DNA of 34,004 nucleotides from Fidelibacterota bacterium (lineage in GTDB: Bacteria; Fidelibacterota; Marinisomatia; SCGC-AAA003-L08; JACNLC01): positions 1 through 34,004 of the forward strand of contig JACNLC010000062.1 of the NCBI GenBank assembly GCA_014381725.1, written 5' to 3'. Positions 10,659 through 33,486 of this stretch are shown piece by piece. Every line of letters begins with the position of its first letter. Within the stretch, counting starts at the first letter, position 1. The position numbers and the translations under genes are program-made. A model generated the notes under the pieces. It had not been told where the DNA came from. It did no database searches and saw nothing but the letters and a program-made list of their open reading frames with translations.

Positions 10659-10670
10659 ATTAGTAATTTG

Positions 10671-11108
10671 ATGAGTCATTCACTTACAAAATTATGGATA
10701 CACAGTATATTTGGAACGAAAAACAGAGAACCTCTGATATCAAAAGATATAAGCGGTACTGTTCATAATCATATGCAAGAACAATTAGAAGAAATGGGCT
10801 GTAAGGTGCGGATTATTAAAGGAACTAGTGACCATGTTCACCAACTATTTTTGCTGTCGAACGATAATTCTATTGCACAAGTTATGAAATCGATAAAAGG
10901 TGAATCTTCTCATTGGATAAACCAGAAGAATTTGACAAAGACAAAATTTAGTTGGCAGACTGGGTATGGTGCATTTTCAGTTAGTGAATCAAATGTTAGT
11001 AAAGTTGAACGATATATTAGAAACCAAGAAGAGCATCATAAAAATATGACTTTTAGAGAAGAATATGAACGATTTATGAAACAACATAAATTAGAGATAA
11101 ACCAATGA
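10671..11108 (+). CDS. REP-associated tyrosine transposase (IS200/Transposase_17-like, Y1 HUH)
   Basis: A 145-aa protein from ATG 10671. A TTG three bases earlier is possible, and neither has a clear ribosome-binding site. Family hallmarks: LWIHSIFGTKNREPLI at the N-terminus; the HUH metal-binding pair H55-V-H57 in SDHVHQLF; WQTGYGAFSVS; and the nucleophile tyrosine Y115 in VERYIRNQEEHH. HUH transposases of this kind cut single-stranded DNA next to hairpins and form a 5'-phosphotyrosine link. All the key residues are present and the length is normal, so the enzyme looks intact. The stop codon lies in the loop of the first right-hand hairpin, so the gene and the element end overlap. Confidence 0.93.
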   Translation: MSHSLTKLWIHSIFGTKNREPLISKDISGTVHNHMQEQLEEMGCKVRIIKGTSDHVHQLFLLSNDNSIAQVMKSIKGESSHWINQKNLTKTKFSWQTGYGAFSVSESNVSKVERYIRNQEEHHKNMTFREEYERFMKQHKLEINQ

Positions 11109-11264: not shown

Positions 11265-14200
11265 ATGAGAAAACAAAGTATGATGAGATATATTCTATTA
11301 TCACTCAGTTTAGTAACCGTTATATTTGCAGGTACTGATGGTACAATTCGAGGTAAAATTACTGATCAAGCAGGAAATGCCTTGCCATTTGCTCAGATTT
11401 ATATAGAGGAACTGAGCATTGGGGCAGTCGCTGATGTGGATGGTGATTATATTGTGATGAATGTTCCTGTAGGAACCTATGATGTAACCTTTATGATGCT
11501 CGGTTATAGTAAAGTGGTAGTTACAGATATTGGTGTTAAAATGGATCAATCGGTTTACATAAACCAAATTCTATCTGAAGAAGTTATTGAAGGTGAAGAG
11601 ATTATTGTTCGCGGTGAAAGGGATTTGGTCGAAAAAGGTACCACAGCTAAAAAAATTACTGTTGGCAAAGAAGCTATTGAAGCTCTTCCTATAAGAGATA
11701 TTACAGAATTATATTCGCTTCAATCAGGTGTGGTTAAAGTAGAAAGTAAAACTCAAGGTATTCCAGACCACGAAGAAAGAGGATTAGAAGAAGTGCATGT
11801 TCGTGGAGGTAGAAGCGGAGAAATTGCCTATATGATTGACGGTTTATACATCAGAAATCCTATTTTTGGTGGAATTGGAAATGGAACTCGTCTCAATCTG
11901 TTTGCTGTTAAAGAATTTGACTGGCAACCAGGTGGCTTTAATGCTGAATATGGTGATGCTATGTCTGCTGTTTCAAATATGCACACTAACTTTGGTAATG
12001 ATAATTTTGAGTATAAATTCAAATATGAAACCAGTACTTTAGGTGCTGTATCTGGAAACTACTATGATGAACTCCGTGGCTATAACGATTATAATTTTGG
12101 CATAGGTGGTCCTATATCGGTAGCACAAGATATTCACTTTTGGCTTTCTGGACAATATACTGATAATCAAACATATAGTGTTTATAAATTTGATGATAAA
12201 GTATTTATAGAAGATGACCCAAATAATGACAATAACAGAGAAAATTTAGTTAATCCTTGGGATAACATTGCTGGTTTTAAAGGTTTTGGGTTTGACAGAA
12301 CTATTGATGGGTTTGGTAAGATATCATGGAAACCAAACAACAAAATCCGTACTAATTTTTCGTATTGGCAAGTTGCTGCGCACAGAAAAGTATTTAATCC
12401 GAGATATATGTATTGGGATGACGGACAGAACGAGTTATTCCGCGATACAAAGAGATATACTTTTGAACTCAATCACCAGTTAACAGGTAACTCATTTTAT
12501 ACAGTTAGATATTCCCGTTTTGAACAAGGACAATTTCAAGGTGTAAGATGGGCTGATAGTGATAACGATGGTTACCCTGATTGGTTTGAGTGGAATCATC
12601 CTGCTGGTGAAAGGAGTATGTCTGATCCATATAATGCAAATGTCGTGCCTTATGATATTGTTAATGGTGATACTGTAAACTATGTAATGCGTGATGGAAA
12701 TGGTCCAGATGATTGGTCGAGTGGTTGGTATTATGGAGCAGATGCTGGAAATTATAATTGGGATGTCGCAGAAGATTTTGATGATGTTAACGGAAACGGA
12801 ATTAGGGATTATGGGGAAGATTTTACAGATTTGAACAATAATAATGAATGGGATGGTCCGGCAAAAACAGAGGATTGTTATTACAGAGATGGTTCATATT
12901 GGCTAACTCCTGAAATGTATGTAAACTGGCAAAATTTTACAGATTATTCTTCAATTTACAATAGATATGAGCAAGACCCTTGGTATGATGAATTCTATGG
13001 CGATGCACAAGAAGCAGTAAATAATGGCTCAGTAAATAATCAGCCATCACAAGCATCTTTAGAAATTGTGGATAATTACAGTATGTATAATTCATGGTTT
13101 GGTACTATTAACGATTCACTTTATTATTTAGGTGGCTGGGATGAAGGTCAAACTTTTGGTGGACACGATAGATTTTATGGTACTTCAATGGCTGTTACAG
13201 ATGAATTTAGAGCCGATTTCACTACACAGTTAACTAAAAAATGGAAAGTCCGCTCTGGAATTGATTGGAAAACTCATAAACTAAATTTTTATGAAGTAAA
13301 AAATCCATGGGACGATGTAGCTGCATTCAGACAAAGATTTTCTGAACAATGGGACGATTATGGTGCTGATGGTATTCCTATGATCGATAATGCTGGTGTT
13401 GCAGATGAAGGAGAAGGAAACGGTGTTTGGGATGAGGGTGAGAAATTTAGTGACTTTAACGGAAATGGTCGATGGGATGATTATGTAGAACCAGAAGAGT
13501 TGTCTGGCTATATACAAAACACATTTGAAGTGCCTTGGATGGTTATCAATGCTGGTATAAGACTTGATGCTGTAAATTATAATTCTAAAATATGGGCAGA
13601 TACTACTGGTGAATTTTCACCGGGAGTTCCTTGGTATTTTAATGATGAAGATGGAGATGGGAATTGGGATCAAGGAGCTGAAGAAGCAGATGACCAATCA
13701 CAGGATAGTTGGGGTTCAAATACTAAAGTTATTTTCAAAAACTCAGAATGGCTATGGAAACTCAGTCCTCGTTTAGGATTTAGTCATGTGATTACAGACC
13801 AAGCTACATTTACATTTAACTATGGTTTATATTATCAAACACCTGTTTACCAAAATGTATATTTGAATACAAATCGTCAAGAAGATCCAATGGAATTATT
13901 TGAAGAAAGTGATGGATATATTGGTAATGCAACTATGATTGCAGCAAGGACACAATCTTATGAATTTGGATTTAACATTCAAGTTAACCGTAATTGGGCC
14001 TATTCGTTAATGGGTTGGGTAAAAGATATGGATCAATTGGCAACTGCTAAAACATACAGAAGTGGGGTTTATGAATATCAAATTTATGACAATGGAGATT
14101 ATGGAAGTGCAAAAGGTATTGATTTCACTCTGCAAAATCGAGGAATGTTTTTTACTACAATGCTTCAATATACATACTCACACGCAAAAGCTAATAGTCA

Positions 14201-14732
14201 ATACGATGGTGCAGCTTTTGGGCAAGTTTATGTAGATGCTCCTTCACAAGAGTTTACAATGTCGTATGATAGAACTCACGATTTAACTGTATCAATGTTT
14301 ACAGTTCTACCATTTGGTATTAGAACATCGCTTACTGGATTTTATCAATCTGGAGCACCTTATACTCCAATGATTTTTAATGGAGATAAACCTGAAGAAG
14401 ATGTTAAGAATAAATTCACAAAACGAGGTCCAGCATATAAAAATGCTAACTTATCATTCTCTAAATATGTATCTTTGAACGATATAAAATTAGCAATTGG
14501 ACTAAATGTTTACAATGTATTTAACTATATGAGTCCTTGGGATGTATGGCCATTAACTGGAGAAGCTGATGATCCTGGTGACTATTATACAGATGATGTA
14601 GGTTTACCTTATGATAGTGATGCTTCAGGAGATGGCCCAGACGGAAACTTGTCGTCAGCTTATTATGATATGCCGTGGTTTTATTCTCCTCCACGACAGA
14701 TAAATTTCTTTGTACAAATTGAATTTAAATAA
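11265..14732 (+). CDS. TonB-dependent-receptor-like outer-membrane protein
   Basis: An 1155-aa protein with a signal peptide ending near residue 23 (LSLVTVIFAG). Residues about 26-110 form a carboxypeptidase-regulatory-like domain (GTIRGKITDQAGNALPFAQI, PVGTYDVTFMMLGY). Residues 115-235 look like a plug (EEIIVRGERD, EEVHVRGGRSGEIAYMIDGL, GGFNAEYGDAMSAV). The rest is a long beta-barrel ending INFFVQIEFK with a terminal aromatic/charged strand. Acidic loops interrupt the barrel: DVNGNGIRDYGEDFTD (about 12781), GNGVWDEGEKFSDFNGNGRW (about 13417) and DEDGDGNWDQG (about 13645); these look able to bind Ca. Such receptors usually move ligands across the outer membrane using TonB energy, but no TonB box or substrate is evident, so a structural role is possible. 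The next gene starts 14 bases downstream, so the two are probably co-transcribed. Confidence 0.85.
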   Translation: MRKQSMMRYILLSLSLVTVIFAGTDGTIRGKITDQAGNALPFAQIYIEELSIGAVADVDGDYIVMNVPVGTYDVTFMMLGYSKVVVTDIGVKMDQSVYINQILSEEVIEGEEIIVRGERDLVEKGTTAKKITVGKEAIEALPIRDITELYSLQSGVVKVESKTQGIPDHEERGLEEVHVRGGRSGEIAYMIDGLYIRNPIFGGIGNGTRLNLFAVKEFDWQPGGFNAEYGDAMSAVSNMHTNFGNDNFEYKFKYETSTLGAVSGNYYDELRGYNDYNFGIGGPISVAQDIHFWLSGQYTDNQTYSVYKFDDKVFIEDDPNNDNNRENLVNPWDNIAGFKGFGFDRTIDGFGKISWKPNNKIRTNFSYWQVAAHRKVFNPRYMYWDDGQNELFRDTKRYTFELNHQLTGNSFYTVRYSRFEQGQFQGVRWADSDNDGYPDWFEWNHPAGERSMSDPYNANVVPYDIVNGDTVNYVMRDGNGPDDWSSGWYYGADAGNYNWDVAEDFDDVNGNGIRDYGEDFTDLNNNNEWDGPAKTEDCYYRDGSYWLTPEMYVNWQNFTDYSSIYNRYEQDPWYDEFYGDAQEAVNNGSVNNQPSQASLEIVDNYSMYNSWFGTINDSLYYLGGWDEGQTFGGHDRFYGTSMAVTDEFRADFTTQLTKKWKVRSGIDWKTHKLNFYEVKNPWDDVAAFRQRFSEQWDDYGADGIPMIDNAGVADEGEGNGVWDEGEKFSDFNGNGRWDDYVEPEELSGYIQNTFEVPWMVINAGIRLDAVNYNSKIWADTTGEFSPGVPWYFNDEDGDGNWDQGAEEADDQSQDSWGSNTKVIFKNSEWLWKLSPRLGFSHVITDQATFTFNYGLYYQTPVYQNVYLNTNRQEDPMELFEESDGYIGNATMIAARTQSYEFGFNIQVNRNWAYSLMGWVKDMDQLATAKTYRSGVYEYQIYDNGDYGSAKGIDFTLQNRGMFFTTMLQYTYSHAKANSQYDGAAFGQVYVDAPSQEFTMSYDRTHDLTVSMFTVLPFGIRTSLTGFYQSGAPYTPMIFNGDKPEEDVKNKFTKRGPAYKNANLSFSKYVSLNDIKLAIGLNVYNVFNYMSPWDVWPLTGEADDPGDYYTDDVGLPYDSDASGDGPDGNLSSAYYDMPWFYSPPRQINFFVQIEFK

Positions 14733-17700: not shown

Positions 17701-18091
17701 ATATGAGAGTATCGAAAACTCAAAAGGAACTACACCACAAGATCAAAATTTTGTTACTGTTTACCCTGGTAGATCTCCACAAGATGATATGAATAATATT
17801 AGAGTTATACCTAATCCATATATTGTTCATTCAGATTATGCGGAAACTGAATATATGAGAAAAATTAGATTTGCTAATTTGCCTGCGAATTGTAAAATTA
17901 CAATATATACAGTTACAGGAGAAAAGGTTATGTCTCTTGACCATAAATATGAAGCAGATGGAATCTATGGAAGCGATTATTATTGGGATTTAAGAACTGT
18001 TAACAATCAAGAAGTAGCACCTGGATTATACATTTTCGTCGCTGAATCAGGCGATAAGAAGCACATAGGTAAATTTGCTATAGTTAGGTAA
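14747..18091 (+). CDS. Large exoprotein with FN3-like region and divergent T9SS-type sorting domain
   Basis: An 1114-aa protein with a signal peptide ending near residue 26 (AIAFGSIFA). The N-terminal part (KNAVTNYGNFITWDEHPAGL, YLPHVAFVSGVPG) resembles a class of long exoproteins that I associate with FCB genomes; I know no function for it. An FN3-like stretch begins at about residue 744 (PEVTADIDFDQVELTW, then SDFEGFKIYKSTDGGRTWG). The last 95 residues (VIPNPYIV, LPANCKITIYTVTGEKV, EVAPGLYIFVAES, GKFAIVR) have the layout of a T9SS sorting domain but not the PNPFNP signature. The last 28 codons lie inside a 1263-bp repeat shared with the gene at 19303, giving both proteins the same C-terminus. 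The position between a TonB-like barrel and a PorV-like gene suggests that it is a cargo handled by that neighbour. Confidence 0.85.
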   Translation: MKINYMKLCKSVLFVSAIAFGSIFAADDKPNDGVGENFNSNGGSLGKIGDWNQPSNPMLDRAKGFLLKGKVKNAVTNYGNFITWDEHPAGLWGDYTYLPHVAFVSGVPGQVYSSDFEWLEGEVSDDGKFKFWESPSAYDKWFENGSDNFVGVVFEVSDDKGKVGEKVETIDDLTTYNQWGIENGAVFISVEYDEYFPIDPNNSSADIGLIYPWALRPKLKERLSDFDLYDYGDDGEEWTFGYCYNAESDEYIYDLVTCADLELEWVDEMDQYDYYGATFSESWFTRWNPNTNTDWQATTNSRVNTHNSDVDAGDVFGSTDFTDTGDTYPMLAHSDHSETWPVKMIEGAETPFWPGWRAENYIPEESGCSPQSRSNPDCWEKDPDRFISDTDVYMEFDDRWAHRGNLVSDNEYLQTGYPMGLKVMAQAHSYGVAYAEDIMFVTVNVRNESGDWCAFERDKDGVEIPVLDDDGYQICGDGLIMPDGTQLNRGEGFDYKDVFLGFYMDADAASTDYFGNFWPHSNEDDFMEYYWERMYVKGDSMRISMAMIYDYDGNSNGATDLGIVATQLLDSPLATHNIDLDKDGEPDIYAGEPLKMTDWHWFDWYNRPGVVTRESNSNCCAGAPGRPQALNKEEIQYKVLAGDTTNLSNDEKDWFFHTNNPAVDSDDDLNPHFDSIEGLEEEPIFDEGLDCVFEMSCGPFDLDVGEQVPFSFCIIFGQDKDDLINNARFAQIMYNSRYQGFTAPEKPEVTADIDFDQVELTWKQSPIFSQDILSEYSDFEGFKIYKSTDGGRTWGNPEDKIKDSDNVFVGWRPYSKGNFVAQYDLDRIEDSLFCIKGFQPDMYDDWITAVGEYKDDLATDELEDDYDFEQYCIPLEDETASSLRGYDIQGEDPKAGWYTLGYNTGLFEDVWNEDNTIGFSFNQVDSVYTFIDRNITPGIEYTYSVTGYDMGVEEDFEITYSGSGVIEQDTTWSHSNPDNWSSPVGYESIENSKGTTPQDQNFVTVYPGRSPQDDMNNIRVIPNPYIVHSDYAETEYMRKIRFANLPANCKITIYTVTGEKVMSLDHKYEADGIYGSDYYWDLRTVNNQEVAPGLYIFVAESGDKKHIGKFAIVR

Positions 18092-18178
18092 TTGGGTGAT
18101 TCTGGCGACAGGAACTCCTTTTTCGAGTGTAAAATTAGTTGTAAGTAAGAAAGTAGAAAGTTTAAAGTAAAGATATAG

Positions 18179-18220
18179 GGAACAAGGAAATAAGTAGAGT
18201 TTGTACTAACTCCTTGCTCC
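18179..18220. repeat. Hairpin in the exoprotein-PorV spacer
   Basis: GGAACAAGGA pairs with TCCTTGCTCC (one mismatch) across a 22-base loop, 24 bases before the PorV-like start. The same hairpin lies at 22510-22551 in the second repeat. There is no T-run, so it is not an obvious terminator. It could set relative expression of cargo and PorV, or mark an RNA processing site. Confidence 0.5.
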
Positions 18221-18244
18221 AAGCTATAATAAGGAACAAAATTG

Positions 18245-19264
18245 ATGAAGACAAGACGAATAATAACCATAGTATTACTGATGTTTGGGTTTGTTTATAC
18301 CCAACAATTCAGAGATATACCTGATGTAGTAACAAAAGTAGCTACAGCCGCTTGTAACTGGCTCAAGATAGAGACAGGAGCTCGCTCCATAGGAATGGGT
18401 GGAGCAGGAGTAGCCGCTGGCGAAGGGATATCATCAGTTACATATAATCCAGCAAATATTGGATTTATCAATGGAACTGACACCTATTATTCTAAATCAA
18501 ATTATTTAGCAGGTATTTCTCATAGTGTATTTGGTTATGGCAAGCAGCTTAGTACAACAGATTATTTTGGACTTCATATGTTTTATTTAGATTCAGGTCC
18601 TATAGAGATAACAGATGAGCTAAACTCTGATGGAGGGATAGGAGATTACCATGTATATAATTTTGCACTAAGGGCTACTTATGCAAGAGTATTAACTAAT
18701 CGTTTAAAAGTAGGTATGTCTGTAAAGTATATCCGTGAAGATATTCATACGACCTTTATGCAGTCATTTGCGCTTGATATTGGTTCTAATTTTGATACAG
18801 GTATATATGGATTTATATTAGGAATGTCAGTAAGTAATTTTGGACCTGAGGTACAATTTCAGGGTGAAGGGTTAGAAGTTTCGTCAGATGATTACCAGAG
18901 GTTTTCCAAGATTACACAGAAGTTTGGATTACCCTTAACCTTTAGGTTAGGTGTAAAGAATGATATAATGGGTAGTAAGAGTGTATTTGTACCAAATAAT
19001 CAACATAGGTTGACAGTAGCACTTGATGGTATAAATCCTATTGATTACACAGTTTATGGAGTTATTGGTTTAGAGTATGGTTGGAATGAGATGGCATTTT
19101 TACGAGCAGGCACTCATATAGGTCACGATACAGCGGGGCTGAGTTTAGGTGGAGGTTTGCAGTATGGCATTAAAGGAGGGTTCAATTTCTCTTTAGATTA
19201 TGCTTATGTTGATTATGCTATCCTTGAGAAAACTCACCAGTTTGGTATAAGTCTAGGATTTTAA
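18245..19264 (+). CDS. PorV/PorQ-family outer-membrane protein (T9SS-associated), copy 1
   Basis: 339 aa from ATG 18245, with AAGGA about 9 bases upstream; TTG 18242 is less likely. A signal peptide ends near residue 20 (VLLMFGFVYTQ). The diagnostic N-terminal segment is WLKIETGARSIGMGGAGVA followed by SSVTYNPANIGFI, as in PorV/PorQ and related FadL-like 14-strand barrels. The C-terminal strand ends HQFGISLGF. In characterised T9SS systems PorV takes substrates from the translocon to the attachment complex, while PorQ has a related role; the sequence alone does not decide between them. The gene lies wholly within a 1263-bp repeat and its protein is identical to the one encoded at 22576. By eye it uses ATA, AAG and AGG codons more than its neighbours. 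Confidence 0.82.
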   Translation: MKTRRIITIVLLMFGFVYTQQFRDIPDVVTKVATAACNWLKIETGARSIGMGGAGVAAGEGISSVTYNPANIGFINGTDTYYSKSNYLAGISHSVFGYGKQLSTTDYFGLHMFYLDSGPIEITDELNSDGGIGDYHVYNFALRATYARVLTNRLKVGMSVKYIREDIHTTFMQSFALDIGSNFDTGIYGFILGMSVSNFGPEVQFQGEGLEVSSDDYQRFSKITQKFGLPLTFRLGVKNDIMGSKSVFVPNNQHRLTVALDGINPIDYTVYGVIGLEYGWNEMAFLRAGTHIGHDTAGLSLGGGLQYGIKGGFNFSLDYAYVDYAILEKTHQFGISLGF

Positions 19265-19302
19265 AAAAATTTAATAATAAAAAATTGAAATTAGGTAAAA
19301 TA

Positions 19303-22300
19303 ATGAAATTTATGAAATATGTAATTGTTGGTTTATTTGGGTTACTTACGATGTTATTTGCACTTGAGGCAGATGCTGGTCCTGACCAGACTGTTGAACA
19401 AGGGACTGAAATAAAGTTAGATGGATCAGGATCTGAATGGACGGATGATGAAGAAACCAAAAATTGGCATTGGTCCTTAATATCACCTGTTGATGCTGAT
19501 ATTGAATTGTCAGATTCTACAACAATGCGACCAGAGTTTACAGCACCTGATGAACTTGAACAAATCGAATATGTTTTCCAGTTAGTTATTGAGCAATTAA
19601 ACGAATATTCAGACCCTGATGAAGTTACAATAACCGTAAAAGAGAACCAAGCTCCGGAAGCACTAGCAGGCGATGATGTTATTGTGTATTACTCTGATGA
19701 AATCAAGTTAAATGCTATGTCATCATTTGATGTTAATATCGATTATATTTCATATCAATGGACAGCGCCAGATGGTTTAGCAATATCAGATTTGAATGTA
19801 GCGCAACCTAAATTTACAATTCCAGATTCTTTAATGAATGTGGACGAAAGCGGTGAATTTATTAACACTGAATTTCAATTTTCATTAATAGTAACTGATA
19901 TTAATGAAATAGGATTTGAACCACTAGATTCTCAACCTGATACTGTTAGTGTAACAGCAACTGTAAATGCTCCAACTGCACCGCTGGTTCCAAATCTATT
20001 CGCAAGAGTAGAGCATATGAAAATTATTCTTAACTGGGATAAAGTTGCAGAAGAATCAATTGACGGATATACAGGATATTCTGATTTTGAAGGATATAAA
20101 GTTTACAGAAGTACAGATGGCGGTATAACCTGGGGTGATGAAGACGACAAAATTTATAACTTTGATGGTGCTTTTATTGGATGGGAACCGATAGCACAAT
20201 TTGATCTAACTGAGATACAAGACGAAACACACTGCATTTACTCAAACTCTTACGATGAAGAGTGTGAAGCAAGAGGACGGGAATTCTCTGGCTTAGATTC
20301 TTTGTCAGAATCTTCGAGGTTTTATTGGGGAGATAATTCCGGATTAAGCCATTCTTTTACTGATGAAACTGTGTTAGATGGAGTAGAATATACTTATGCA
20401 GTTACTGCTTATGATATTGGACTTCATACCTTTACAGAAACATTTAATGGAGATACTGGTAATGGATATGGAGTAGATTGGTCATCTACAAATCCTGGCC
20501 ACTTTATAGGTCCGGGTGGAAATGGTTTGGCCACTCTTGAATCCATTAAAGGCTACACTTCTAGCTCATTCACAGACTGGGAAATGGATGAAACATATAA
20601 TCGTGGTGATGCAGTTAAACATAGTGATAGATTTTGGGTTGCTACTGAGTCAATTATTAATGGTAATGAAACTCCTCAAGAAACACTAGATTGTCCTTGG
20701 CAGAAAGTTAGTGACGCTTCAACAATTTGGTTTGATAATATTTCTTATGACATTAATACCGTTGTAGATTATGATAATCAGTTATGGATTGCGATAACAA
20801 CAATTGATGCTGGAGTCGTTCCTGAACGAAATAGTAATGTTTGGCATATGATGTATCCAAATCTTGCGTCCAAAGTTAGAGCAGGTTTTTATGCAAGTAA
20901 TATTACTTTCCCTGATTTAGATAATGCAGAGAGTTTTATTGAAAAGTCAGACAACAATATTGGTAATGGCTTTATGTCAGTAGCAATAATTAATGAAGTT
21001 GAATTAACTGATGATATTGTTAAATTTGAAATCCAAGCTGATTATTCAGGTAATTCGGAATTATTTGAAGATTTACCTACTGAAAATCCGAAATTATTTA
21101 TTTATGAAATTGAATCTTTGGAAGATTTCACGCCATCTGACTATGAATCAGAAATTGTTGCAGATTTAGATTCATTGGAGATAATTGAGTATTTAGATAA
21201 ACCTGGAGCTATCTACAATTCTGATTCTACAGAAATTCGTTATCCATCAAATTACAAAATTGAAGATTTTCCAGTTGACAATATACTAAATGAAGGCTGG
21301 GAAAATAATTGGACAGACTTTTTTGACGGTATTCGTATGAGAACAGATAATGCCATTGCTGATTATGATATTCTTGATGATATTTATGGGTGGACTGGAG
21401 CTGTTCCAATTATAGAAAAATTTGGATATGTTAATGATGAACTTGACACTAACTTTGCAAATCAAATAGATATCAAATTAACATATAAAAACTTAGCATC
21501 GTTTAGTATGCGTCCTCCATATACTTACAAAATTGAATTCAGTAATTCTATAATTGATTACTCTGAAAAATCATCTCCTTCGGGCTGTTGCGATGGAACA
21601 CCATTTGAAGATGATAGAACAGTACCATTCCCTTTTACTGTTACTAATTTAACAACAGGCAAAAGAGTAGGTATTCAACATATGGATAAAGGGTATCTAT
21701 CCGAATCAAGCGATAATGGCTATAAAGATTGTTTTTGGGAAAGAAACGAATTATTACAAATGAAGTATGATACTGTTACTGTTGATGGAGAAATTGATGA
21801 AACAGGTGATATTTTTAAGATGAATATAGATTTTACTGGTTATGGTCAATATTTGGCTACATTATCTCCTTGGGTAGCAACAAAATTATACGAAACTGGC
21901 GATGTAGTTAGTTATGCTTATATGGCTTTTGAAGCAACTACAGCTGTTTCTGATATTTTACCAACAAAATGGGTTGGTGAGAGTACAATTGTTAATGAGA
22001 ATCCTTGGAAACCTCTATATCCTTGGGAAGATGGAAGTTATATAATTGTTGAACCATTCAAGTGGTTTGTAGATGGTGATTCGTGGGTAGCTGATTTATC
22101 ATTATTAGGCGATAGTCACGAAGTAACTCAAGAAGAGTTGGAAGGAATTAAGGTTGTACCAAGCCCATTCATTGTTGATTCTCCTTATGCAAATGATGGG
22201 ATTCATTTTACAAAACTTCCACAAGAATGTAGAATTACAATTTATACATTGACTGGTGAAATGGTTAAAACAATTGATCATTATGACCAGTATAGAGGAG

Positions 22301-22422
22301 ACACAAACGCAGATTGGGATTTAACCAATGAGCATAATCAAGAAGTAGCACCTGGATTATACATTTTCGTCGCTGAATCAGGCGATAAGAAGCACATAGG
22401 TAAATTTGCTATAGTTAGGTAA
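19303..22422 (+). CDS. Second large exoprotein with PKD-like, FN3-like and CBM5/12-like segments and divergent sorting domain
   Basis: 1039 aa from ATG 19303 (AGG 7 bases upstream); a TTG at 19285 is less likely. The signal peptide ends near residue 25 (LLTMLFALEADA). Residues about 26-230 contain two PKD/Ig-like domains (DAGPDQTVEQGTEIKLDGSGS; EALAGDDVIVYYSDEIKLNA). An FN3-like region has YSDFEGYKVYRSTDGGITWG, close to the matching part of the 1114-aa paralogue. Three segments resemble the Y..GD.V.Y...W.A core of CBM5/12 carbohydrate-binding modules: about 426-475, 477-520 and 857-905. The C-terminus (VVPSPFIV, LPQECRITIYTLTGEMV, EVAPGLYIFVAES) is the divergent sorting domain, and its last 28 codons lie in the 1263-bp repeat. 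The first 650 or so residues are not like the paralogue outside the FN3-like part, so identical tails join very different cargo bodies. Confidence 0.85.
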   Translation: MKFMKYVIVGLFGLLTMLFALEADAGPDQTVEQGTEIKLDGSGSEWTDDEETKNWHWSLISPVDADIELSDSTTMRPEFTAPDELEQIEYVFQLVIEQLNEYSDPDEVTITVKENQAPEALAGDDVIVYYSDEIKLNAMSSFDVNIDYISYQWTAPDGLAISDLNVAQPKFTIPDSLMNVDESGEFINTEFQFSLIVTDINEIGFEPLDSQPDTVSVTATVNAPTAPLVPNLFARVEHMKIILNWDKVAEESIDGYTGYSDFEGYKVYRSTDGGITWGDEDDKIYNFDGAFIGWEPIAQFDLTEIQDETHCIYSNSYDEECEARGREFSGLDSLSESSRFYWGDNSGLSHSFTDETVLDGVEYTYAVTAYDIGLHTFTETFNGDTGNGYGVDWSSTNPGHFIGPGGNGLATLESIKGYTSSSFTDWEMDETYNRGDAVKHSDRFWVATESIINGNETPQETLDCPWQKVSDASTIWFDNISYDINTVVDYDNQLWIAITTIDAGVVPERNSNVWHMMYPNLASKVRAGFYASNITFPDLDNAESFIEKSDNNIGNGFMSVAIINEVELTDDIVKFEIQADYSGNSELFEDLPTENPKLFIYEIESLEDFTPSDYESEIVADLDSLEIIEYLDKPGAIYNSDSTEIRYPSNYKIEDFPVDNILNEGWENNWTDFFDGIRMRTDNAIADYDILDDIYGWTGAVPIIEKFGYVNDELDTNFANQIDIKLTYKNLASFSMRPPYTYKIEFSNSIIDYSEKSSPSGCCDGTPFEDDRTVPFPFTVTNLTTGKRVGIQHMDKGYLSESSDNGYKDCFWERNELLQMKYDTVTVDGEIDETGDIFKMNIDFTGYGQYLATLSPWVATKLYETGDVVSYAYMAFEATTAVSDILPTKWVGESTIVNENPWKPLYPWEDGSYIIVEPFKWFVDGDSWVADLSLLGDSHEVTQEELEGIKVVPSPFIVDSPYANDGIHFTKLPQECRITIYTLTGEMVKTIDHYDQYRGDTNADWDLTNEHNQEVAPGLYIFVAESGDKKHIGKFAIVR

Positions 22423-23598
22423 TTGGGTGATTCTGGCGACAGGAACTCCTTTTTCGAGTGTAAAATTAGTTGTAAGTAAGAAAGTAGAAAGTTTAAAGTA
22501 AAGATATAGGGAACAAGGAAATAAGTAGAGTTTGTACTAACTCCTTGCTCCAAGCTATAATAAGGAACAAAATTGATGAAGACAAGACGAATAATAACCA
22601 TAGTATTACTGATGTTTGGGTTTGTTTATACCCAACAATTCAGAGATATACCTGATGTAGTAACAAAAGTAGCTACAGCCGCTTGTAACTGGCTCAAGAT
22701 AGAGACAGGAGCTCGCTCCATAGGAATGGGTGGAGCAGGAGTAGCCGCTGGCGAAGGGATATCATCAGTTACATATAATCCAGCAAATATTGGATTTATC
22801 AATGGAACTGACACCTATTATTCTAAATCAAATTATTTAGCAGGTATTTCTCATAGTGTATTTGGTTATGGCAAGCAGCTTAGTACAACAGATTATTTTG
22901 GACTTCATATGTTTTATTTAGATTCAGGTCCTATAGAGATAACAGATGAGCTAAACTCTGATGGAGGGATAGGAGATTACCATGTATATAATTTTGCACT
23001 AAGGGCTACTTATGCAAGAGTATTAACTAATCGTTTAAAAGTAGGTATGTCTGTAAAGTATATCCGTGAAGATATTCATACGACCTTTATGCAGTCATTT
23101 GCGCTTGATATTGGTTCTAATTTTGATACAGGTATATATGGATTTATATTAGGAATGTCAGTAAGTAATTTTGGACCTGAGGTACAATTTCAGGGTGAAG
23201 GGTTAGAAGTTTCGTCAGATGATTACCAGAGGTTTTCCAAGATTACACAGAAGTTTGGATTACCCTTAACCTTTAGGTTAGGTGTAAAGAATGATATAAT
23301 GGGTAGTAAGAGTGTATTTGTACCAAATAATCAACATAGGTTGACAGTAGCACTTGATGGTATAAATCCTATTGATTACACAGTTTATGGAGTTATTGGT
23401 TTAGAGTATGGTTGGAATGAGATGGCATTTTTACGAGCAGGCACTCATATAGGTCACGATACAGCGGGGCTGAGTTTAGGTGGAGGTTTGCAGTATGGCA
23501 TTAAAGGAGGGTTCAATTTCTCTTTAGATTATGCTTATGTTGATTATGCTATCCTTGAGAAAACTCACCAGTTTGGTATAAGTCTAGGATTTTAAAAA
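22336..23598 (+). repeat. 1263-bp direct repeat, copy 2
   Basis: Second copy of 18005-19267, same orientation, offset 4331. The two copies bracket 3068 bases that are almost entirely the second exoprotein gene. Recombination between them would remove or add one exoprotein + PorV module while keeping an intact exoprotein C-terminus. Confidence 0.95.
22576..23595 (+). CDS. PorV/PorQ-family outer-membrane protein, copy 2
   Basis: 339 aa, identical in protein sequence to the product at 18245 and preceded by the same 153-base spacer and ribosome-binding site. It follows the 1039-aa exoprotein in the same arrangement as copy 1 follows the 1114-aa one. Two identical copies so close together imply recent duplication, gene conversion, or an assembly join across a repeat. 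If both are real, the dosage of this PorV-like protein is doubled, with one copy co-expressed with each cargo. Confidence 0.82.
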   Translation: MKTRRIITIVLLMFGFVYTQQFRDIPDVVTKVATAACNWLKIETGARSIGMGGAGVAAGEGISSVTYNPANIGFINGTDTYYSKSNYLAGISHSVFGYGKQLSTTDYFGLHMFYLDSGPIEITDELNSDGGIGDYHVYNFALRATYARVLTNRLKVGMSVKYIREDIHTTFMQSFALDIGSNFDTGIYGFILGMSVSNFGPEVQFQGEGLEVSSDDYQRFSKITQKFGLPLTFRLGVKNDIMGSKSVFVPNNQHRLTVALDGINPIDYTVYGVIGLEYGWNEMAFLRAGTHIGHDTAGLSLGGGLQYGIKGGFNFSLDYAYVDYAILEKTHQFGISLGF

Positions 23599-23645: not shown

Positions 23646-26420
23646 ATGAGAAAGTATGTTATTATTTCGTTGTTGGTTAGTGTTGGATTATTGTTTGCAA
23701 GAGAACGATTTCTTCAAACAAATTCATCTGATTTAACAATTGAAGGAGCTAAAACAATAAAATCCACCGAAGTATCTGAATCGGCATTAAACAGAGAAGA
23801 AATTATTCTGTTTGAACAGGATTTTGAAGGTGATGTAAGTGACTGGAATAATGGTTCCGGATGGGAGTTGACTGAATTAGAATCCTACAGTCCAACGCAC
23901 AGTTTTAATTCACCGAATGAACTTAACGGTGCAAACGCAGGTATTTGGACATTAACATCGCCTGTAATTCCAATACCAGAGATTGGTGGGGAAGAAATTA
24001 TGCACTTCAAATTTGCATTAAAAACTGATATGCCTGATTCTGACGGTGATGATGATACTTTACTCGAAGATTATTACTGGGTTGACATTGCAGATGCAGA
24101 TGCACTTGCATGGCATACATCAGATTTTAATGCTTACACAGCAAATTCTTATTGGTGTGGTCAAGAAGAAGAGTCTGGTTATTTAGATGGTTGGCTTCAG
24201 TTCTTAGATTCACCAGAAATAACTATCCCAGATAATAGTTTCGTAATGAAAACTCAACTTAAATGGGGTATTGAAAGTCCTGCTGGTGCAGGAGATGTAT
24301 CTGAAGGTTGGATTGATGGTTGGGATGCGGCAAATGTGCGAATTTCAACTGATGGTGGAGCAACTTGGGATATCTTAATTGGAGATCATGCTTATGATTT
24401 TTATAGTGGTTATGGTTGGGTGTTCAATGGTGAAGAAGATGGAACTGATGGTGTACATACAATTGCATCAGGTTGGGGAAACCAACAAGGTTGGCATCCG
24501 GTAGAATTTGATTTATCTGCTTATGCTGGAGAAACTGTTATCGTCCGTTTTGCATTTGGTTCTGACCCTGCGTATTCTGTAATTGATGATGCAAATTTAA
24601 TTGGATTCTTGGTTGACGATGTATCAATTGAAAGTAATGGAACTGCTATCTTTACAGCAAATGCAGATGATGAAGATCCTATGACTGCTTCAGGTTTAAC
24701 TTGGGTTAGTCAGTTTTATGATTATTATGATGATGGAAGTGAAACAGGTTCACCTCGTCCAGGAAGTTTAGGATGGGAAGAATATCTACCAGGCTATCCT
24801 TTCTGTGATGGTTGTAATACTTATTTAGATATCAGTGAATTTGCTGGTAAAAATGTTATATTTAAGTTTTCTTCAAGATATGATGAAGATGATGATGGCG
24901 GAAACGGAACTGGAATATTTATTGATGATTTAACAGTTTACAAAGAATCATCAGCTAATTATGTAGCACCTTCTGGGCTTGAAGGTGAAGCACTAAATTC
25001 TCAGTGTAATGTTTGGTGGGACGATATGAATCTATCAGGAACTGATGATTTTATTTATGATAATGATGATGTAACTGATGGAATTAATTTAACTGCAGAA
25101 GGTGATGCTTGGGCAGGCGAAATTATTAATTTAGTTGGAGTATCAACAGTTAATACGGTTTCTATTTTTAGTGTAAATGGTGAATCTGTCGATTCTAAAA
25201 TAACAGCTTATGGAACAGTAGGAGCATTCTTTGAAACAGATCCAATGTATGAAATGGATGTAACTCTAGTGCCTGGTTGGAATACTTTTGAAGTAACTGG
25301 TTGGGATTTTGAAGGAACTTATATTATTGCAACTCTGTTTACTGATATTATTTTAGCTGGTTTGGATGCCTCCGCTTCACCAAGTACAAATAGCGTTGTA
25401 ATGCTTGGTGGTGGTTGGGACCTTTGGTCAACTATTGCAGGTGGAGATCTAAATGACGGTGAATGGGGAATTAGAGCAAATATCACATTTGATGGTGCAA
25501 ATGTAACTTACAATGTTTACCGTGACGGAGAAGCAATTGCAAGCGACTTAACAAATGCTTCATTCTCAGATTATGATGTTGTGAACAATTTTAGTTATGA
25601 ATATGCTGTAAGTGCAACTTATGACGATGGCGAAGAAAGTGATTTATCAGACTCGATACAGTTAACTCCACAAGCAGATACAGTTTATGAGTTAGCTTAC
25701 GATGATGGATCGCAGGAAAGTGGTTTCAATGCGGGATCTGGAAATTACTCTATGGTGAAATTCACTCCATTAGGATTAAATGATTTAATTCGTTTGAAGT
25801 GGTACCAAGTTGGTGATGGCGGAGCATTGTATTTGAAGATATACGATGATATCGATGGAATTCCTGGCGACCAAGTTTACAGCAAAATTATTACTGATGC
25901 TGTGGATGGCTGGAATACTTATGATGTCGGCGACGAAGAATTTGTATTTGGTGCAGATTTCTGGTTTGGAATTAAAGAATTCAGCTCAACTATGCCAATT
26001 GGTTTAGATACAGGTTCTGATGCTGGATTATCATATTTTAGTGGTGACGGTGGAGATTCTTGGGAACCTATCTCAAATCTTGGTTACTCTGGAAATCTAA
26101 TGATTAGGGTATTTTTGGATGAAGGTCAAGCTGGAATTGGTGAAAACTTGGTTATTGATGATTTTGCACTATATCCTGCATATCCAAATCCGTTTAATCC
26201 TGTAACTACAATTTCATTTAATTTGGAAACAGCATCATCTGTAAGTGTAACAGTTTACAATGTAACAGGTCAACTAGTTGATACTATAGTTTCAGAAAAT
26301 ATGAATGCTGGATATCAAGCGTTTAACTGGAATGCTAATAATCATCCAAGTGGACTTTATATCGTGAATGTAAATACGAATGATGAAACTCTTTCACAGA
26401 AAGTGCTTTTAATAAAATAA
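23646..26420 (+). CDS. 924-aa T9SS exoprotein with MAM/jelly-roll-like modules and an interrupted FN3
   Basis: ATG 23646 has AGGAG at a 6-base spacing. The signal peptide ends near residue 19 (LLVSVGLLFA). Residues about 56-330 resemble the MAM-like/choice-of-anchor modules of immune-inhibitor-A-type exoproteins (FEQDFEGDVSDWNN, VRISTDGGATWD, GFLVDDVSIE). A second module runs to about 437 (GIFIDDLTVYKES). An FN3 begins at 441 (APSGLEGEALNSQCNVWWDD), is broken by about 155 residues, and resumes at about 618 (VTYNVYRDGEAIAS). A beta-sandwich follows (DDGSQESGFNAGSG, LYLKIYDDIDGIPGD), then the T9SS sorting domain from 843 (YPNPFNPVTTISFNL, SGLYIVNVNT). No protease motif is present. The role is probably binding or adhesion. 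The gene ends before a clear terminator. Confidence 0.9.
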   Translation: MRKYVIISLLVSVGLLFARERFLQTNSSDLTIEGAKTIKSTEVSESALNREEIILFEQDFEGDVSDWNNGSGWELTELESYSPTHSFNSPNELNGANAGIWTLTSPVIPIPEIGGEEIMHFKFALKTDMPDSDGDDDTLLEDYYWVDIADADALAWHTSDFNAYTANSYWCGQEEESGYLDGWLQFLDSPEITIPDNSFVMKTQLKWGIESPAGAGDVSEGWIDGWDAANVRISTDGGATWDILIGDHAYDFYSGYGWVFNGEEDGTDGVHTIASGWGNQQGWHPVEFDLSAYAGETVIVRFAFGSDPAYSVIDDANLIGFLVDDVSIESNGTAIFTANADDEDPMTASGLTWVSQFYDYYDDGSETGSPRPGSLGWEEYLPGYPFCDGCNTYLDISEFAGKNVIFKFSSRYDEDDDGGNGTGIFIDDLTVYKESSANYVAPSGLEGEALNSQCNVWWDDMNLSGTDDFIYDNDDVTDGINLTAEGDAWAGEIINLVGVSTVNTVSIFSVNGESVDSKITAYGTVGAFFETDPMYEMDVTLVPGWNTFEVTGWDFEGTYIIATLFTDIILAGLDASASPSTNSVVMLGGGWDLWSTIAGGDLNDGEWGIRANITFDGANVTYNVYRDGEAIASDLTNASFSDYDVVNNFSYEYAVSATYDDGEESDLSDSIQLTPQADTVYELAYDDGSQESGFNAGSGNYSMVKFTPLGLNDLIRLKWYQVGDGGALYLKIYDDIDGIPGDQVYSKIITDAVDGWNTYDVGDEEFVFGADFWFGIKEFSSTMPIGLDTGSDAGLSYFSGDGGDSWEPISNLGYSGNLMIRVFLDEGQAGIGENLVIDDFALYPAYPNPFNPVTTISFNLETASSVSVTVYNVTGQLVDTIVSENMNAGYQAFNWNANNHPSGLYIVNVNTNDETLSQKVLLIK

Positions 26421-30087: not shown

Positions 30088-32274
30088 ATGAGACAATTAG
30101 TAAAGATGATAACCATTGCTGTTTTCAGTTTTGGTCTTGTGTTTGGTGTAGTATCCAGATCAAGCCATAAAGTAAGCAATGTTTATAAACCTCGCTTTGA
30201 GCCAACAGGAAGTGTGCTAGATAATGGCACTTCAAGTCCTATTATGCAATACAATAGCCGTGATAACTATTTCCAAGCTGCACTAATAGATTCATCAAAA
30301 AATGGTTATGGTATGATTGCAGGAGGTACTTACCCTCTAGCAGTTCGTGCCGAAGGATTTTTTGCTGTTTACCGTCAATGGGCAGGAGAAACCGGTACAA
30401 GTGGCCAAATAGGTTCAGCATTTTCTGAAGATGGCGCAGATTGGACAACCTACCAGAATCTAAATCCTGGTATGGGAGTTGGCCGTTATCCAAGTGCATT
30501 AGCAAATGAAGAATATCCTTATGCATTTTGGAATGAGTACACAGGCGATGGAAATCCAAGTTATGGTGGAAGGCCATATTATGCTTATGATGAATTTGGA
30601 TGGGATGGCGGTTCTTTTTCAGAGCCCTACAATGTTGATCCTGCTTGGACAGCAGGTAAAGATTTATGGGTAGGTTCTGTAGATTATTCTTATGATGCAG
30701 ACAATGATGAACATCATTTTAATGCTTGTTATAATGATTGGACAAGAGCAGATCGTTATTGTTTCACATCAGAAGCTTATGAAGATGGATTTATAGTTTT
30801 CAGTAACGAAAATAAAGTAATTGATGAAAACACTGATTTTATAGGTGGTGATGATGAAGGAAGTTATATGTCTAGCCCTGTTCTTGATATCAACGAGAGT
30901 GGTGTTGGGTATGTTGCAGTTTCTGCATACTTCTTGGGTGCAACTGATGGTGTAAGTCATTATGCTAATACACACACAATTGTATTTAAAGGGACTAATG
31001 ATTATGGTGAACACTGGGATGATGGAGACCAAGGTGGTTCAGGTTACTATTTTATTCCAGATAATGTATTTGATCATATGTTTACAAGTGGTGTATTCGA
31101 TGAGTCAACAGAATATGATCCTTGCTTTTTAGATGAAAACGGAGAACCATATTATTTTAATGAACTTTTTGTGACTTATGATTTTGCATTAAAAGTAGAT
31201 TCTGATGGTAATCCACATTTTATTGGCGGAATTTTACCTTCATCTGCGGATTTTATTTTCCCTGGTTTTAAAGATAATGGATATTATCATTTTACTATTG
31301 ATAAAGATTATTTATTAGATCCAGGCGCACCTCAAAGTGCAACAGGCTGGAATTACTCTAAAGTGATTGCTACTGACGATATGTGGCCTTATGAAGACGA
31401 AGACGGACTTTCATACTGGCAAAATGTATTTCCATCATTAGCAATTAGTACAGAAAATGAAGACATTATGTATGTTGCTGTATCTGGTCCAGCTGCTACT
31501 GATTTTGTTACAGTAGATGATTCTGGAACTCCAGATGATGAATGTGATGATATGGGCTTTAGACCAACTTGGAATGAAGATGTTTATGTTGTTAAAACTA
31601 CTGATGGCGGTGCTGCTTGGTGGGATCCATACAATGTTACAAATACAACTCCAGATTGTTGGGTAGCTGCGTGTTCAGATGTACAATACCACAATGAGGA
31701 AGATTGTATAGCCGCAGGTGAAACTTGGAGTTTGCTTGGAGCAGAAGAAGTTCATTGTGAAGATGCAGAATTCTGTGCAGATGGCGAAACTATGAATCAA
31801 CCTGATGAAATAAGTGCACACGCAGGTAATGGTGCAACTGACGAAGTTATGTATGTTATGTTTCAAAGTCCAGATTGGTGCTATGGTTCAACAACAGGTG
31901 ATATGAGTGCACCAAATCATAAAAATCGTGTGTATGTCGGAACAGTAACTATCGAAGGAACTGCGTCAACTGATCCAATTAGTGATGTAGTTGTTTCAAG
32001 TTATGAATTGAATAGTGCATATCCTAATCCGTTTAATCCTACAACTGCAATTCAATACACTGTTGCAAATGCTGGCGATGTATCAATTACAGTTTATGAT
32101 ATGCTTGGCCGTGAAGTAAGAACTTTAGTTTCTGAACATCACAATCCTGCTACATATTCTGTTTATTGGAATGGTATGGATAACACTAATAACGAAGTTT
32201 CTAGTGGTGTTTATTTCTATAAAATGACAGCAAATGATTTTGTTAAAACAAACAAGATTGTATTCATGAAATAA
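30088..32274 (+). CDS. 728-aa T9SS exoprotein, possible sialidase-like/BNR beta-propeller
   Basis: ATG 30088 follows AAGGAG by 7 bases. The signal peptide ends near residue 23 (AVFSFGLVFGVVS). The body has repeated strand patterns with S.DG..W-type motifs (FSEDGADWTTYQNL, VVKTTDGGAAWWDP) that suggest BNR/sialidase-like propeller blades. I do not see a complete sialidase active site, so no enzymatic claim is made. A Cys-rich insert lies near residues 525-575 (DCWVAACSDVQYHNEEDC, HCEDAEFCADGE). The sorting domain starts at about 643 (SAYPNPFNPTTAIQYTV, SSGVYFYKMTA). Its 263-base coding sequence and the following hairpin are closely repeated in the next gene. Its promoter is not obvious; the 88-base upstream gap shows no terminator. 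Confidence 0.88.
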   Translation: MRQLVKMITIAVFSFGLVFGVVSRSSHKVSNVYKPRFEPTGSVLDNGTSSPIMQYNSRDNYFQAALIDSSKNGYGMIAGGTYPLAVRAEGFFAVYRQWAGETGTSGQIGSAFSEDGADWTTYQNLNPGMGVGRYPSALANEEYPYAFWNEYTGDGNPSYGGRPYYAYDEFGWDGGSFSEPYNVDPAWTAGKDLWVGSVDYSYDADNDEHHFNACYNDWTRADRYCFTSEAYEDGFIVFSNENKVIDENTDFIGGDDEGSYMSSPVLDINESGVGYVAVSAYFLGATDGVSHYANTHTIVFKGTNDYGEHWDDGDQGGSGYYFIPDNVFDHMFTSGVFDESTEYDPCFLDENGEPYYFNELFVTYDFALKVDSDGNPHFIGGILPSSADFIFPGFKDNGYYHFTIDKDYLLDPGAPQSATGWNYSKVIATDDMWPYEDEDGLSYWQNVFPSLAISTENEDIMYVAVSGPAATDFVTVDDSGTPDDECDDMGFRPTWNEDVYVVKTTDGGAAWWDPYNVTNTTPDCWVAACSDVQYHNEEDCIAAGETWSLLGAEEVHCEDAEFCADGETMNQPDEISAHAGNGATDEVMYVMFQSPDWCYGSTTGDMSAPNHKNRVYVGTVTIEGTASTDPISDVVVSSYELNSAYPNPFNPTTAIQYTVANAGDVSITVYDMLGREVRTLVSEHHNPATYSVYWNGMDNTNNEVSSGVYFYKMTANDFVKTNKIVFMK
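32012..32274 (+). repeat. Sorting-domain repeat, copy 1 (263 bp)
   Basis: Aligned without gaps to 33224-33486. I count about 16 differences in 263 bases. It covers the whole PNPFNP sorting domain of the 728-aa protein and stops at the stop codon. Confidence 0.9.
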
Positions 32275-32697: not shown

Positions 32698-33486
32698 ATG
32701 AAAAAATTGATAGTAATACTTTTTGCATGTGGATTTCTATTTAGTACTGATATGAATTTATGGGTATCCGATGTTACAAATTCATCTGTTCAAATATCAG
32801 CATCAAGCGCAGAAGGCCTTGTTGAGATTTCTGGTTTCCAGTTTAATTTGGTTACAGATCCGATCAGTAATAATATTTTAGAACTTATCGATACACTTTT
32901 TGTTGAAGGAGATACTGTTTCTTCTTCAATTTTATATCCAATATCTGGTGCAGTAACTGAGTCAAATTTCACCTGCTTTGCAAATCCTGAAGGGAAGATA
33001 GTAAGTTTTTCATTTGAAGTAAATCCGATTGCGTTTGAAGGAACTCAAGTTTTGGCAGAATTCACTTGGGATATTAGTGATGTTGCAATCACGAGTGTTA
33101 CAGTTGAAGATCCGGTATTCATATTTTCAAGTGGTGAATCACTAATCGAGTTATCTGTTGATGTCGGTGAACCTTTTGTCTTGGGAACTAGTATTTTCGA
33201 AAATATAAGTACATTTAAATTAGATAGTGCATATCCTAATCCGTTTAATCCTATAACTGCAATTCAATATACAGTAGCAAATGTTGGCTATGTATCAATT
33301 ATAGTTTATGATATGCTCGGCCGTGAAGTAAGAACTTTAGTATCTGAACATCATAATCCTGCTACATATTATGTTAATTGGAATGGTATAGATAACACTA
33401 ATAACGAAGTTTCTAGTGGTGTTTATTTCTATAAAATGACAGCTGGTGATTTTGTTAAAACAAACAAGATTGTATTCATGAAATAA
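32698..33486 (+). CDS. Small T9SS exoprotein with one N-terminal beta-sandwich (cohesin-like) domain
   Basis: 262 aa from ATG 32698, which has an ideal AGGAGG 6 bases upstream; the TTG at 32692 is rejected because it overlaps the AGGAGG. The signal peptide ends near residue 16 (LIVILFACGFLFS). Residues about 18-165 form one domain with alternating strands (VEISGFQFNLVTDP, IVSFSFEVNPIAFEGTQVLA). It resembles the first strands of cohesin-type modules, but this is a weak match by eye. Residues 177-262 are a PNPFNP sorting domain nearly the same as that of the upstream 728-aa protein. It may be a small surface-anchored binding or docking module. Confidence 0.85.
   Translation: MKKLIVILFACGFLFSTDMNLWVSDVTNSSVQISASSAEGLVEISGFQFNLVTDPISNNILELIDTLFVEGDTVSSSILYPISGAVTESNFTCFANPEGKIVSFSFEVNPIAFEGTQVLAEFTWDISDVAITSVTVEDPVFIFSSGESLIELSVDVGEPFVLGTSIFENISTFKLDSAYPNPFNPITAIQYTVANVGYVSIIVYDMLGREVRTLVSEHHNPATYYVNWNGIDNTNNEVSSGVYFYKMTAGDFVKTNKIVFMK
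33224..33486 (+). repeat. Sorting-domain repeat, copy 2 (263 bp)
   Basis: Partner of 32012-32274 at offset 1212. Changes are scattered and include several amino-acid replacements (T/I, A/V, D/Y, T/I, S/Y, Y/N, M/I, N/G), so it is older than the 1263-bp repeat. Confidence 0.9.

Follow-up and report, generated by a model that had tools for sequence, protein, structure and literature searches.

Recurrent concerted evolution has been documented for 26 prokaryotic genes, on the basis of conserved synteny and of clustering seen in five or more species (PMC6053082). In Bacteroidota, PorV serves as a carrier of type IX secretion (PMC5562754; structure 6H3I), and in Flavobacterium the gene for a PorP/SprF carrier lies directly downstream of the type B cargo gene (PMC12618676). 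The operon analyzed here touches on all three: as in the 26 genes, its carrier copies are syntenic duplicates that cluster by genome and are identical even at synonymous sites in at least five species, but a secretion-carrier gene here alternates with diverged cargo genes in one operon.

The window, which is the whole stretch of DNA analyzed (34,004 nucleotides), is an entire contig, one of 88 in a 2.18-Mb draft genome that is 98% complete; no overlap of its right end with the other contigs of the draft was found. Named loci homologous to it come nearly all from Candidatus Neomarinimicrobiota (Marinimicrobia). The operon encodes, in this order, a 713-aa protein, a TonB-dependent receptor-like protein, the cargo protein exo1, a PorV-family protein, the cargo protein exo2, a PorV-family protein again and then more secreted proteins, several of which carry type IX sorting tails. 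Exo1 and the PorV gene behind it form slot a, exo2 and its PorV gene slot b (Table 1). An IS200-like Y1 transposase gene (10668-11108) is located between the genes for the 713-aa protein and the TonB receptor and was not seen there in annotated relatives. Cadherin-like repeats with a 537-bp period are present at 831-2019, the first two units being 92% identical over 300 bp.

Table 1. Features of the two-slot operon in the window.
Feature	Position	Strand	Basis
TonB-dependent receptor-like protein, first conserved neighbor of exo1	11265..14732	+	Pfam Plug and CarboxypepD_reg; same position in relatives
exo1, secreted cargo of slot a, 1114 aa	14747..18091	+	Same-slot orthologues across the class
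Repeat copy 1 (slot a): last 28 codons of exo1, 150-bp spacer, PorV, 3 bp	18005..19267	+	Exact match to copy 2
PorV/PorQ-family gene, slot a, 340 aa; likelier start ATG 18245	18242..19264	+	NCBIfam PorV_fam (NF033709) 168.8 bits (cut-off 90); PDB 6H3I by profile
exo2, secreted cargo of slot b, 1045 aa; PKD domains in front part	19285..22422	+	Same-slot orthologues in relatives
Repeat copy 2 (slot b): last 28 codons of exo2, 150-bp spacer, PorV, 3 bp	22336..23598	+	Exact match to copy 1
PorV/PorQ-family gene, slot b, identical to slot a	22573..23595	+	Exact repeat
Secreted protein with type IX sorting tail, next after slot b	23646..26420	+	Por_Secre_tail 46.5 bits

The carrier gene belongs to the PorV/PorQ family (the score for PF19572 is 37.2 against a cut-off of 27), and a profile search matched it to the solved PorV structure. 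It scores far below the cut-off of the equivalog model for classical PorV (T9SS_OM_PorV, 72.1 against 250 bits). The same genome contains an SprA-type translocon (631 bits, cut-off 200), the marker by which type IX secretion was assigned. Unlike the PorV of Bacteroidota, the window's carrier gene stands directly behind its cargo genes, and their tails miss the type A model (TIGR04183; exo2 12.2 against a cut-off of 23, exo1 without a match). Across the order, 43 of 49 PorV-family places lie at most 300 bp downstream of a match to an exo1/exo2-type cargo tail, and three of the remaining six sit at the start of a contig. The arrangement resembles the Flavobacterium type B pairs, where the carrier likewise adjoins the 3' end of the cargo gene; here, however, the carrier is PorV-like instead of PorP/SprF, and the two carriers are kept identical instead of being specialised.

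Direct comparison of the two repeat copies, which are offset by 4331 bp, showed identity at all 1263 of 1263 positions, a value that short-read collapse of a 1.26-kb repeat may have inflated by hiding a few differences. The first mismatches occur at 18004 and 19268, and the 28 shared exoprotein codons are followed by the stop codon. Only these two copies are found in the whole draft genome. The earlier note had described the repeats as identical-looking and as containing the end of an exoprotein, a spacer and a full PorV-like gene, which is confirmed on both points; chance as their source is excluded. The two exoproteins have related C-terminal domains, and weak homology therefore extends upstream of the repeat, with 12 identical bases at 17982-17993; downstream, the flanks of the two copies show no homology. 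The 150-bp spacer between cargo and PorV genes (18092-18241 and 22423-22572) is present at just these two places in the genome, which rules out a mobile or widely repeated element; in the relatives lacking it, cargo and PorV genes overlap or nearly do so.

Both slots were found on one contig in 14 genomes including the window, all of which are drafts, so that exact identity in any one of them may hide a few differences. The two PorV copies match exactly or almost exactly in the window and in G164, G162, G159, G145, G133, G149, G125 and G135 (in the latter two, most differences are ambiguous bases). DNA identity of the pair is 97% in G127, 77% in G047 and about 66-69% in G129, G131 and G015, so that nine genomes besides the window have pairs at 97-100%. 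Between genera, the protein is much more variable, the window PorV sharing about 45-60% identity with those of other genera. Of the 28 codons that differ between the G127 copies, 23 are synonymous. The PorV tree joins the two copies of each genome as sisters; G129 and G131 are the exceptions, their slot-a and slot-b copies falling into separate clades, and the pairing in G015 is uncertain, as long branches are involved. A constraint placing all slot-b PorVs in one clade was rejected (p-AU 1e-5). G129, G131 and G015 keep diverged copies, showing that homogenisation is not universal. Copies as different as the cargo genes in related genomes had been named beforehand as an outcome that would refute the earlier interpretation; they do occur in these three genomes, and we read them as an old pair that was not homogenised.

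The cargo genes have a different history. Exo1 and exo2 of the window share 42% amino acid identity over 254 aligned columns of their two shared domains, and a tree of these domains splits by slot across families (SH-aLRT 100). Pairing exo1 with exo2 of the same genome was rejected for G133 (p 3e-86), G127 (6e-13) and the window (0.019, which is weak alone). Judged from these sequences, exo1 and exo2 are separate, ancient, slot-specific lineages, and the order TonB receptor, exo1, PorV, exo2, PorV recurs across the class. The very recent duplication suggested by the earlier note is therefore ruled out for the module as a whole; recent re-copying of PorV alone may have occurred in the window. 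Exo2 differs greatly between genera in the length of its front part, and the exo2-type protein of G152 (L148:12046-19836, flipped orientation) reaches 2596 aa, over double what is usual. In G001-G004, the closest relatives of the window, a single PorV accompanies one long exoprotein with an exo1-like front and an exo2-like back. Since the split form is class-wide, this fused form is more likely derived than ancestral, and perhaps arose when the shared domains recombined; for the same reason, the two-module state of the window is less likely to descend from it.

The ends of the identical tracts are informative with respect to mechanism. In the exact pairs, the left edge of identity lies 7 to 28 codons ahead of the cargo gene's stop codon, and the right edge no more than about 13 bp from the stop codon of PorV. 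The end of the cargo gene overlaps the PorV start, or comes close to it, in most relatives, so that these final cargo codons also contain the sequence directly preceding PorV. In G162, G159, G133 and G149, identical PorVs have different stop codons in the two slots, and the two slots of G164 still diverge in the final 13 bases of PorV. Downstream flanks are also specific to the slot: G133 and G153 have the same slot-b flank, which likewise follows the only PorV of G132. That stop codons and flanks go with the slot favors conversion between resident copies over fresh duplication. Taken together, the PorV pairs very probably reflect recurrent concerted evolution, for which gene conversion between the fixed slots of an ancient two-module operon is the simplest mechanism. 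Such an operon would comprise two cargo-carrier modules, each a secreted protein followed by its PorV-family partner, whose cargos diverged long ago. Gene conversion would repeatedly equalise the PorV genes together with a few cargo codons just upstream, recombination running from conserved DNA at the cargo gene's end as far as the PorV stop codon. The slots would retain their own flanks and often their own stop codon, and the copies would drift apart between events. The enzymology is presumably that of general homologous recombination, and PorV is taken to be the outer-membrane carrier of exo1 and exo2. The continuing gene conversion proposed in the earlier note is thus strongly supported, through recurrence in many genera and not by the window's genome alone. 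The C-terminal tails of two adjacent secreted-protein genes further downstream (32006-32274 and 33218-33486) are 92-93% identical in DNA, compared with 66 and 72% for their counterparts in G001 and G003; this tail pair could represent a second, partial homogenisation or swap.

Similar pairs would also result if a slot repeatedly lost its PorV and later regained it from the other slot by way of the shared cargo end, with no conversion of a resident copy. PorV can indeed be missing from either slot (from slot a in G023, from slot b in G025 and G166), and the tracts cover whole PorV genes; yet the downstream flanks and stop codons are slot-specific and common to relatives, and the residual differences at the PorV end in G164 are likewise at odds with re-gain, which we regard as unlikely overall. 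For the window itself, the relatives with a fused exoprotein and one PorV speak against the conversion account, so that its own history could include loss and re-gain. That the second copy is an assembly artefact of a single PorV or of mixed strains is highly improbable. The genome is a draft of many contigs, and exact repeats of more than 1 kb are presumably hard for short-read assemblers, but the joins from PorV to exo2 and from exo2 to PorV each need reads at the junction. The same order is found with distinguishable copies in G127, G047, G129, G131 and G015, and also in G133 and G149 (AG-404-J18 and AM-382-M06), whose record names look like those of single-cell genomes; G127 and G047, whose copies differ enough for assembly to separate them, show two true copies. 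At PorV, several contigs terminate and overlap exo2 contigs by 141 or 55 bp; a repeat that forms a branch point in the assembly graph would produce this pattern, which supports real repeats.

Instead of undergoing gene conversion, the same repeats may cross over, deleting exo2 and one PorV. G132 and G133 are 91-94% identical in the TonB gene, exo1 and PorV, and in G132 exo1 is followed by a single PorV and then by the flank that stands after slot b in G133. An exo2 orthologue was not found in this 96%-complete genome. G132 therefore corresponds to the product expected from a crossover between the repeats, and deletion is likely in at least one relative. G139 resembles G132 but is 76% complete, and in both genomes an unbinned exo2 contig could mimic a deletion. 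Thus, of the deletion or amplification predicted earlier, deletion has one strong natural example, subject to these assembly caveats, whereas amplification was not seen: none of the surveyed genomes listed more than two such PorV copies. It is scarcely credible that the locus works as a cassette system whose repeats serve to delete, add or exchange surface proteins, as had also been proposed. The repeats could recombine and G132 resembles a deletion product; against this, the cargos are conserved, slot-specific orthologues, arrays of more than two such PorVs are missing from the listings, and nothing like a dedicated recombinase gene was found next to the repeats or elsewhere among the window ORFs searched. 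The sole transposase-like gene, the Y1 gene, lies away from the repeats.

The process is of a known kind, and the PorV case is not on the published list of 26 genes. Synteny of the duplicates is conserved in the class-wide operon order, the copies cluster by genome and not by position (with the exception of G129 and G131), and ten genomes including the window show 97-100% DNA identity. No report linking PorV to gene conversion or to Marinimicrobia was found in the open literature, which omits some journals. The advantage of identical PorVs could lie in dosage or in both cargos needing the same carrier. A further, rather speculative suggestion is that homogenisation is selected and not just tolerated: the two different cargos would have to share one carrier, conversion between the slots would keep both the carrier and the adjoining cargo end matched, and an occasional crossover of these repeats would remove the second cargo in some populations.

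For genome work on these bacteria, the results carry a warning, as contigs tend to break, or to lose exo2, at PorV. The cargo-carrier operon suggests that type IX secretion beyond the Bacteroidota includes a dedicated pairing of cargo and carrier. Prokaryotic protein genes rarely show long-lasting concerted evolution, and a secretion carrier of a mostly uncultured marine group would now be added to the known cases. Since pairs were found at several stages (100, 97, 77 and about 66% identity), suggesting graded ages, the cycle of conversion and drift is open to study.
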